NCBI RefSeq assembly: GCF_032116555.1
Contig: NZ_CP134949.1
Coordinates: 1,612,001 to 1,676,000, forward strand
From: Halobaculum sp. XH14
GTDB taxonomy: Archaea > Halobacteriota > Halobacteria > Halobacteriales > Haloferacaceae
Length of the DNA: 64,000 bases
Direction: 5' to 3'
The notes beneath the pieces are model-generated. The model made no database searches. It was not told the origin of the DNA and saw only the letters and a program-made list of their open reading frames with translations. Below, piece after piece: positions 4,664 through 7,653 of this stretch (position 1 is the stretch's first letter; the number at the start of each line of letters is the position of its first letter). A program made the translations under genes and the position numbers.

Positions 4664-5539
4664 ATGAGCGACCGCTCCCCCCGCGACGACGACGAGCTCG
4701 AGGCGCTCCTCTCGGAACTCGAGTCGACCCTCAGGGACCTGCGCTCGGAACTCGACGACCGGCCCGACGGTCGCGGACGCGGCCGACGTCGGTCCGACCG
4801 CCGTGCGTCCGGCCGGCGGGAACTGCCGCGCCCGCCCAGCGTCGGCGAACTGCTCCGGTTCACGAACGACTACACCATCCCGACCGTCATCGCCACCCTC
4901 CAGGCGACGATCGAGGCGCTCGAACTGTTTCGCCGGTTCCTCGAACTCGGCGTCGGCACCGACAGGGACCGGGGCAGGGTGGGCGACGACGACCGCTCGA
5001 TACTTCGGCCGGCGCTCTCGGGGGCGGGCGACCGCGCCGCCTCGGACGTCACCGACGCCCTCTCGCGGCTCCGGACGACGCTGGCGGAGGCGGATCTGCC
5101 CGAGGACGAGACCTCGCGGGACGTCATCGAGGACGCGCGCGACCTCTCGGCGCGGATCGAGGAGCGAATCGCGGACTCGCGCGAGACGGTTTCGCGGGAA
5201 CGCGACCGCGAGCGTGCGGAGAACGCTGACGGTGACGGCGCGGTCGTCATCGACGTGACGGACGGCGATGACAGAACCGGCGACGCGGACGGAGCGGACG
5301 CCGACGCGGGCGAACCCGAGGACGACCCCCCGCAGGTCGACGTCGAATCCGAACTGCGGTCCATCAAACGACGGATGGGGAAAGGGGAGTCGAGTGCGGA
5401 CGAGGACCCGGCCGCTGACGAGGGGAACGACGCGGCCGGCGCGGCCGACGACGGGGACGAGGGGGACACTGACGACGAGAACGGGGCCGACGCCGACGCC
5501 GACGCGACGACCGACCCGGACGACTCGCCGACCGAGTGA
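4664..5539 (+). CDS. Acidic haloarchaea-specific helical protein
   Basis: 291 residues. An N-terminal coiled segment (DELEALLSELESTLRDLRSEL, about 10-30) and an Arg-rich linker are followed by the best-conserved-looking block, GELLRFTNDYTIPTVIATLQ and then ALELFRRFLELG (about 65-105). More helix follows, and then a long Asp/Glu/Ala-rich low-complexity tail (about 190-291). I recall this block from haloarchaeal DUF proteins of unknown function and may be wrong about the family number (DUF7547). No enzymatic motif is visible. It is probably soluble or membrane-peripheral. It is monocistronic and convergent with the DUF35/thiolase pair. Confidence 0.7.
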   Translation: MSDRSPRDDDELEALLSELESTLRDLRSELDDRPDGRGRGRRRSDRRASGRRELPRPPSVGELLRFTNDYTIPTVIATLQATIEALELFRRFLELGVGTDRDRGRVGDDDRSILRPALSGAGDRAASDVTDALSRLRTTLAEADLPEDETSRDVIEDARDLSARIEERIADSRETVSRERDRERAENADGDGAVVIDVTDGDDRTGDADGADADAGEPEDDPPQVDVESELRSIKRRMGKGESSADEDPAADEGNDAAGAADDGDEGDTDDENGADADADATTDPDDSPTE

Positions 5540-5567: not shown

Positions 5568-5981
5568 CTACTCGACCGGACGGAACCGGTAGCCGTCCCA
5601 CGACTGGCTCTCGGCCTCGCGGATCCCCGCGTCGGGGTCCCGGAGCTCCTCGCAGTACGTCGGTTCGACCGTGTCGCCGATCTCCACGTCGTCGTCGGCA
5701 ACCTGGCCGATTGCCCGCACCGGCTCGCCGTCCACGTCGAACTCGACGATCGCCAGGTGGTTCGGCTCGCGGACGCCCGGCGGGGTCGCGGTCGAGGTCG
5801 TCCAGGTCACCACCTCGGCGTCGTACTCGGCGAGGTCGACGGTCCCGACCGGGGCGTCGCCGCCCGGGCCGACCGGATGTGACGGGTAGGTGATGCTCCC
5901 GTCGGGGTAGCGTGCGGCCTCGAACGCCGGCCGGTCGGCGCCCTGGGGGGCGGGTTCCGGGGACTCGTCGGCTCCGGTCAT
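5568..5981 (-). CDS. DUF35/OB-fold acyl-CoA-binding partner protein, zinc ribbon lost
   Basis: 137 residues. The C-terminal part fits the OB fold of the DUF35 family (GTVDLAEYDAEVVTWTTST, then LAIVEFDVDGEPVRAIGQV and IGDTVEPTYCEELRD). In archaeal thiolase complexes DUF35 proteins bridge thiolase and HMG-CoA synthase and bind CoA. Family members normally begin with a zinc ribbon of four Cys. Here the equivalent region (EAARYPDGSITYPSHPVGPGG) has none, and the protein has a single Cys near the end. Its ATG overlaps the stop of the upstream thiolase by 4 bp, so the two are translationally coupled and probably bind each other. Confidence 0.8.
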   Translation of the reverse strand: MTGADESPEPAPQGADRPAFEAARYPDGSITYPSHPVGPGGDAPVGTVDLAEYDAEVVTWTTSTATPPGVREPNHLAIVEFDVDGEPVRAIGQVADDDVEIGDTVEPTYCEELRDPDAGIREAESQSWDGYRFRPVE

Positions 5982-7132
5982 GCTCCGGCCTCCAGAATGG
6001 TCGTCGTCACGCAGTTCCCGAACCCGCCGACGTTGCACGCCAGTCCGACGTCCGCGTCGACCTGACGGGCTCCGGCGTCGCCCATCACCTGCCGGTAGAT
6101 CTCGTACACCTGCGCGACGCCCGACGCGCCGAGCGGGTGGCCCTTCGACTTCAGCCCGCCCGAGGTGTTGACCGGAATCTCGCCGTCTCGCGCAGTGCTC
6201 CCGTCCTCGACCGCCTTCCAGCCCTCGCCCTTCGGCGCGAACCCGAGATCTTCGAACTGCAGGAACTCGAGGATGGTGAACATGTCGTGGAGCTCCGCGA
6301 CGTCGACGTCGTCCGGTTCGAGGTCCGCCATCCCGTAGGCCTGCTCGCTCGATTCGACCACCCCGCGCATCGTCGTCGGGTCGGCGCGCTCGTGGACGAC
6401 GTGGGTGTCAGTCGCGCCCGCGACGCCCGAGACGACCGCGTACTCGTCGGCGTACTCGCGGGCGACCGACTCCGGGCAGAACAGCAGCGCCGCCGAGCCG
6501 TCCGTGATGGGACAGAAGTCGTAGAGGCGAAGCGGGTCGGCCACGACTGGCGAGTCGAGCACGGTGTCCAGGTCCACCTCCTTCCTGAACTGTGCGTGCG
6601 GGTTGTCGACGCCGTTCCGGTGGTTCTTCACCGCGACCTTCCCGAGGCTCTCGCGCGGGGCGTCGTAGCTCTCCAGATAGAGGCGCGCCGTCAGCCCGGC
6701 GAACGACGGGAGCGTCACGCCGTGTTTGTACTCCACCGGGTGCGTGAGCGAGGCGATGACGTCGGTCGATTCGGCGGTCGACCGGTGGGTCATCTTCTCG
6801 CCGCCGACGAGCAGCGTCATCTCCGACGCGCCGGAGGCGACCGACTGCCAGGCGGCGTACGTGCCGGCTCCACCGGAGGAGGAGGTCTGGTCGATTCGAG
6901 CGGTGTAGGCGGGCATCGCCGCGAGGTCGTGTGCCAGCGCGTTCGGCACGCCGGTCTGGCCCTCGAACTCGCCGCTCGCCATGTTCGAGACGTAGAGGTG
7001 GTCGACGGCGTCCGGCGGCACGCCCGCGTCCGCGAGACACGCCTGCCCGGCTTCGGCCAGCAGTTCACGGATCCACGCGTCGCGCTGCCCGAACTGGGTC
7101 ATCGACGCGCCGACGACTGCGACTCGGTCCAT
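5978..7132 (-). CDS. Thiolase-superfamily protein with Ser in place of the nucleophilic Cys
   Basis: 384 residues with a full thiolase layout. The N-terminus is VAVVGASMTQFGQ, the GEKM motif is VGGEKMTHRS, and the catalytic His motifs ELHDMFTILE and KSKGHPLGASG are present, as is the C-terminal CNVGGFG loop. The acylated nucleophile region normally reads xxCASG; here it reads DQTSSSGGAG (codons TCC TCC TCC), putting Ser84 at the Cys position. The enzyme may therefore be a non-decarboxylating acyl binder, a slow Ser-based thiolase, or a structural partner. It overlaps the DUF35 gene by 4 bp. The start at 7132 (MDRVAVVG) fits the family better than the upstream in-frame ATG at 7156. Confidence 0.88.
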   Translation of the reverse strand: MDRVAVVGASMTQFGQRDAWIRELLAEAGQACLADAGVPPDAVDHLYVSNMASGEFEGQTGVPNALAHDLAAMPAYTARIDQTSSSGGAGTYAAWQSVASGASEMTLLVGGEKMTHRSTAESTDVIASLTHPVEYKHGVTLPSFAGLTARLYLESYDAPRESLGKVAVKNHRNGVDNPHAQFRKEVDLDTVLDSPVVADPLRLYDFCPITDGSAALLFCPESVAREYADEYAVVSGVAGATDTHVVHERADPTTMRGVVESSEQAYGMADLEPDDVDVAELHDMFTILEFLQFEDLGFAPKGEGWKAVEDGSTARDGEIPVNTSGGLKSKGHPLGASGVAQVYEIYRQVMGDAGARQVDADVGLACNVGGFGNCVTTTILEAGA

Positions 7133-7207: not shown

Positions 7208-7215
7208 GTTAAGTG
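7208..7215 (+). promoter_or_regulatory. TATA-like box for the membrane protein at 7237
   Basis: GTTAAGTG lies about 26 bp before the ATG at 7237, implying a leaderless mRNA. The sequence is nearly the same as the box before dpsA. Confidence 0.5.
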
Positions 7216-7236
7216 CCCGCCCTCCGGACGGCCCGT

Positions 7237-7653
7237 ATGGACATGCAGGACGCCGCGCCCGTCGCCGGCATCGGCGGCTGTCTCGCCACGCTGCTCGCGC
7301 TCGCCGCCCCGTACGTGCTGATCAGCGAGCCCGGGACCGGTCTCACGGTGTACTACGCGAGCGGCCCGCTGGGGGCGGCCGGGATCGGGTTCCTCGCGGC
7401 GCTGCTGGTCGTCGTGTTCCTCTCGGGCAAACAGGGACGGACGGCCCCGGACACGGTCGCCGGCATCGCGGTCGTCGCGTCGTTCGGGCTGTTCGTGTTG
7501 ACGCTCCTCTGGGCGCTCTCGGTCGACCCCACGAACGTCCTCTCGTTCCCGGCGAGCGCACGGTGGATGACCGGCCACCGGTGGATACTGCTCGCCTGTA
7601 GCGCGCTCGTCCCCGTTGCCGGCGCGGCGTACGTGTGGGCCGTGCTGCGCTGA
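7237..7653 (+). CDS. Four-helix haloarchaeal membrane protein
   Basis: 138 residues with four hydrophobic segments at about 8-28, 45-65, 75-98 and 115-136. Short polar loops separate them, for example GKQGRTAPD and SVDPTNVLSFPASARW. No catalytic motif is seen. I recall it as a haloarchaeal family of unknown function (possibly DUF7548). The start at 7237 is set by the TATA spacing. It is divergent from the thiolase/DUF35 pair, with a shared ~100-bp promoter region. Confidence 0.65.
   Translation: MDMQDAAPVAGIGGCLATLLALAAPYVLISEPGTGLTVYYASGPLGAAGIGFLAALLVVVFLSGKQGRTAPDTVAGIAVVASFGLFVLTLLWALSVDPTNVLSFPASARWMTGHRWILLACSALVPVAGAAYVWAVLR

Follow-up and report, generated by a model that had tools for sequence, protein, structure and literature searches.

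A thiolase gene and a coupled DUF35 gene in Halobaculum sp. XH14

The window, a stretch of 64,000 nucleotides from Halobaculum sp. XH14, carries two overlapping genes on the minus strand. The upstream gene (5978..7132, 384 aa) encodes a thiolase that we refer to as alpha, the putative catalytic subunit of a haloarchaeal-type beta-ketothiolase, as judged from its translation, Pfam matches and motif columns; the downstream gene (5568..5981, 137 aa) encodes a DUF35-type OB-fold protein lacking zinc ligands, identified by translation and PF01796, that we refer to as beta. The beta start and the alpha stop overlap as ATGA. The flanking genes, at 4664-5539 and 7213-7653, encode DUF7547 and DUF7548, which are of unknown function; of 80 related loci, 39 have a DUF7547 homologue close to the pair and 37 a DUF7548 homologue.

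The alpha translation (window 7132..5978, minus strand) contains RIDQTSSSGGAGTYAAW and matches Thiolase_N (E=1.2e-58) and Thiolase_C_1 (E=2.3e-51). When alpha is aligned with Cys-type relatives and with the solved thiolases 7yvy and 6esq, the catalytic Cys of CASG falls on residue 84, and the alpha motif TSSSGG places Ser84 in the nucleophile column; its TCC codon lies at 6881..6883 on the minus strand, counted from the start at 7132, where ordinary thiolases encode the catalytic Cys. The HDMF, GHPLGASG and CNVGGFG motifs start at residues 282, 331 and 366, and the motif columns of the alignment show that His282 (HDMF), His332 (GHPLG) and Cys366 (CNVGGFG) are retained. A sequence-only reading of this DNA had described a Ser at the thiolase nucleophile position together with intact catalytic His motifs and an intact CNVGGFG loop, and the alignment bears out both points. 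Alpha combines the thiolase domains with the Ser-His-His set (Ser84, His282, His332) of haloarchaeal-type beta-ketothiolases, and has Ser84 and HDMF instead of the catalytic Cys and HDCF of SCP2-type and archaeal Cys thiolases. The predicted model of alpha has low confidence around the active site and was left unused.

The degenerate zinc site of beta

The sole Pfam match in beta is the OB domain PF01796 (E=2.6e-6), with no match to the zinc-ribbon model in the Pfam search. The ATGA overlap and this domain confirm the earlier description of a coupled DUF35 partner with an OB fold and, together with the fold model, give alpha the adjacent OB-fold subunit typical of haloarchaeal-type ketothiolases. 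The zinc ribbon is reduced to a degenerate hairpin (residues 25-37, Y-PDG-S-ITYPSHPV; 5871..5909, minus strand, counted from the start at 5981); in the H. mediterranei homologue encoded on a plasmid, the aligned stretch reads C-PNG-H-VSYPTHPR-C-RK-C. The ligand positions are now Tyr25, Ser29, Gly38 and Gly or a gap, and the one Cys in beta is located in the OB domain. The sequence-only reading had all four zinc-ribbon Cys lost; it is right that no ligands remain, but the ancestral-looking set of the subfamily is three Cys and one His (C-x3-H-x8-C-x2-C), not four Cys.

Searched as a single sequence, beta hit none of the solved structures; a profile of its family picks up the DUF35 chain in the thiolase/HMG-CoA synthase complex 6esq (E=3.5e-32). 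The predicted beta model has a pLDDT of 85 overall and of 95-97 across residues 21-60, and its top fold matches are DUF35 chains in thiolase, acyltransferase and aldolase complexes, including 6esq; the two structure predictions were run without sequence rows from the plasmid collection. From the quality of this model and its DUF35 fold matches, the ribbonless hairpin is predicted to keep its place.

Distribution and constraint of the pair

The thiolase was found in 271 of 292 haloarchaeal genomes at a match threshold of E<=1e-100, and viral contigs gave no match to the pair. The close members considered here are 136 thiolases that have a partner gene. None of them departs from Ser84, His282, Met284 or His332, and beta starts 10 bases or fewer from the alpha stop in 134 members. 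The Ser84 codon is TCN in 87 members and AGY in 49, and since a switch between these needs two base changes, the codon mix speaks for selection for Ser. For alpha, dN/dS against the nearest relatives is about 0.10-0.15; beta gives 0.20-0.32. An origin by chance or decay is ruled out by the retention of Ser84 in 136 homologues and by the low dN/dS. The earlier suggestion that recurrence in haloarchaea with intact His motifs would mark a distinct subfamily is thus upheld by the genome count, the invariance and the dN/dS values, and the opposing case that it named, Ser and ribbon loss in a single genome undergoing general decay, does not apply.

Could alpha nonetheless be a decayed or non-catalytic thiolase homologue, concerned only with acyl-CoA binding or channeling? 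Its canonical nucleophile is lost, and in related archaeal groups this position is taken by Asp or Pro. We consider this very improbable, however, given the invariant catalytic His motifs, the purifying selection, the near-universal presence of the thiolase in haloarchaea and the H. mediterranei relatives, which are reported to be genetically required for PHA synthesis (PMC7137286, PMC6631277).

In G009 (L124, L147) and G033 (L125, L146) the Ser-type thiolase is read as two fragments that overlap but lie in different frames, and in G033 this split reading occurs in two tandem copies. These are frameshifts or assembly errors.

Serine and ribbon loss vary independently

The sequence-only reading suggested that Ser and ribbon loss had co-evolved. 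Both traits are present in the window pair, and zinc ligands are absent in 103 of the 136 Ser84/HDMF pairs (perhaps 102, as a wrong-frame beta call, L106, stayed in the counts), which is what would be seen if the two had arisen jointly as one module with changed chemistry. It had also proposed checking whether Ser84 and the missing ribbon co-occur and are conserved, and here the idea fails: Ser84 is invariant but the other 33 pairs have an intact C-x3-H-x8-C-x2-C, there are no partial ligand sets among the 136, and the partners of two Cys-type thiolases, L149 and L150, lack the ribbon as well, each of the four ligands having been substituted. The probable BktB-beta of H. mediterranei is one of the ribbon-bearing Ser-type partners.

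The tree gives the same picture. It was built with the active-site columns masked, and three truncated gene calls (L195, L201, L206) were left out of its count. On it the nucleophile residue undergoes four changes, of which one is to Ser, and the ribbon state eight (or seven, depending on L106). The Ser state has one origin, with a support of 90 from a short search, in a clade that includes Sulfolobus ST0096, the exact place of which is uncertain on a tree with long branches. In roughly five independent pairs with contrasting ribbon states, the nucleophile is essentially always the same within the pair. The single Ser origin and the eight ribbon changes indicate that Ser is the older and stable state and the ribbon the variable one. 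Strict coupling is refuted by the pair counts and the tree, and we assign a joint origin a negligible probability. The zinc ribbon of beta is apparently dispensable in the Ser-type ketothiolase family.

Active-site residues that accompany serine

A different set of residues does track Ser. HDCF and a His at 366 are shared by all 33 Cys-type rows, and the Ser-type close members have HDMF in 136 of 136 and Cys366 in 134, the exceptions being two Halogranum members with Thr. This association of HDMF and Cys366 with Ser, and of HDCF and His with Cys, points to an active site that is rebuilt around Ser, with HDCF replaced by HDMF and the loop His by Cys366. In thiolases the same acid/base role can be filled by either the cysteine of HDCF or that of CxG, so Cys366 may stand in for the lost HDCF cysteine. 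In bacterial thiolases the second acetyl-CoA is deprotonated by the CxG cysteine, acting as acid/base.

We propose that Ser84, activated by His332, would be acylated to form an oxyester, that His282 would sit in the oxyanion hole, and that Cys366 would act as the acid/base and deprotonate the second acetyl-CoA. By analogy with what is reported for BktB-beta and PhaA-beta, the OB-fold beta would dock on alpha and be required for activity. The interest that remains is chemical. Claisen condensation should be harder with an oxyester than with a thioester, and Ser is nevertheless kept at this position in nearly all haloarchaea, with a matched change of neighbouring residues.

Other potential nucleophiles are Cys366 in the CxG position, Cys207 and Cys374, in which case Ser84 would only support binding. 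Cys366 occupies a position at which Cys-type paralogues have His, and within the clade Cys207 and Cys374 never vary. However, the two Halogranum members with Thr366 have Ser84 intact, and a sister Ser-type group with HDAF has Val, Ile or Leu at 366 in nine of ten members (one has Cys) and Asn at 374. The best solved match to alpha, ST0096 of Sulfolobus tokodaii (PDB 4yzo, E=3.9e-87; PMC6392133), groups with the Ser clade and shares the Ser in the nucleophile column (TSGSGG) and GHP, but has HDMA for HDMF, no Cys at 366 and Thr at 207. The existence of Ser-type members without Cys366 makes this residue a less likely nucleophile and, among the candidates, only Ser84 occurs in all Ser-type rows. 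We therefore regard a nearby Cys as unlikely to be the nucleophile and favor Ser84.

Further nucleophile variants were observed. The sister Ser-type group (SASG/SATG, HDAF; L007, L126, L127, L128, L189, L191-L195) has 45-49% identity to window alpha, and its DUF35 partners are ribbon-bearing, mostly with four Cys. Asp is present at the nucleophile position (GDASGG/ADASGG, with HDSF/HDSY) in the archaeal homologues L198, L203, L207, L129 and L130, which pair with four-Cys DUF35 proteins and arose at least twice according to the tree. Pro is present (GPASGS, HDAF) in L204, L205 and L206, which adjoin short DUF35 proteins.

Relationship to the PhaA and BktB ketothiolases

Two haloarchaeal-type beta-ketothiolases are described in H. 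mediterranei, PhaA (HFX_1023-1022) and BktB (HFX_6004-6003), each having a catalytic alpha subunit with Ser-His-His and an OB-fold beta needed for activity and for PHA synthesis, and a strain with both pairs knocked out is reported to make no PHA; we take this work (Hou 2013) from three reviews and one research paper (PMC7137286, PMC9049629, PMC8387396, PMC6631277). The sequence-only reading had missed these published two-subunit enzymes. A pair on the H. mediterranei plasmid pHME505 (E6P09_RS15515/15520), with an alpha 77% identical to that of the window, is probably BktB, an identification inferred from its gene order, alpha, beta, sagB and orc1, which fits HFX_6004 down to HFX_6001. This plasmid pair is absent from all 15 Haloferax genomes examined. 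Other Haloferax species have a single chromosomal copy, presumed to encode PhaA-alpha, with 88-90% identity to the window pair, and the higher identity to this copy than to the pHME505 pair suggests that the window pair is probably a PhaA-type orthologue.

Homology, the invariance of Ser84, His282 and His332, the tight alpha-beta pairing and the single Ser origin make it very likely that the window pair encodes a haloarchaeal beta-ketothiolase of the PhaA/BktB kind, Ser-type and heteromeric, and enzymes of this kind are already known. The analysis guards against mistaking an enzyme kind already in the literature for a new one, and it uncouples two traits that had seemed to go together.

Metabolic context

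The window genome has no match to class III PHA synthase C at E<=1e-60, and a PHA-specific role in this organism is unsupported. Across the haloarchaea PhaC (TIGR01836) is present in 161 of 292 genomes, a lower number than for the thiolase, and by hand count in 15 of 21 genomes without the thiolase versus 146 of the 271 that carry it, so neither gene depends on the presence of the other. The pair does lie within about 4 kb of phaC in 13 genomes, and a PHA link therefore exists in some lineages. In the absence of a class III PHA synthase match we propose that the product of the window enzyme probably enters the mevalonate pathway or the general metabolism of acyl-CoA. A mevalonate role would not be exclusive, since the same genome has three further thiolase-DUF35 pairs, all Cys-type; the window enzyme probably acts as a general-purpose acetoacetyl-CoA thiolase, perhaps sharing its role with these. 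More tentatively, the haloarchaeal and Sulfolobales enzymes may represent an ancient archaeal thiolase lineage with a Ser oxyester, a re-formed CxG cysteine base and a central part in acetoacetyl-CoA supply beyond PHA alone.

Comparison with other thiolase and DUF35 systems

The window pair resembles PhaA and BktB in its Ser-His-His alpha, its OB-fold beta and its neighbouring genes, which are cotranscribed in H. mediterranei; it differs in the missing PHA synthase match and in a beta without the ribbon that the probable BktB-beta keeps. The acetoacetyl-CoA thiolase/DUF35/HMG-CoA synthase complex of Methanothermococcus thermolithotrophicus (6esq, 6et9) has homologous thiolase and DUF35 subunits, but with a Cys nucleophile, HDCF, a zinc ribbon and an included HMG-CoA synthase. 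The window pair has Ser, HDMF and no ribbon, and no linked synthase gene; the sole PF01154 (HMG-CoA synthase) match in the genome is at C1:1883166, about 264 kb away.

In the steroid hydratase-aldolase CtShy-CtSal (9myr) the DUF35 partner is an aldolase, and its C3H1 zinc finger has the C-x3-H-x8-C-x2-C spacing of the ribbon-bearing haloarchaeal betas, whereas window beta has lost the zinc site. This Cys3His1 finger was reported as novel in the Comamonas steroid aldolase complex (PMC12329534). DUF35 partners with the same spacing (L005, L136, L157 and about 40 others) are common in haloarchaea, beside Ser-type and Cys-type thiolases alike.
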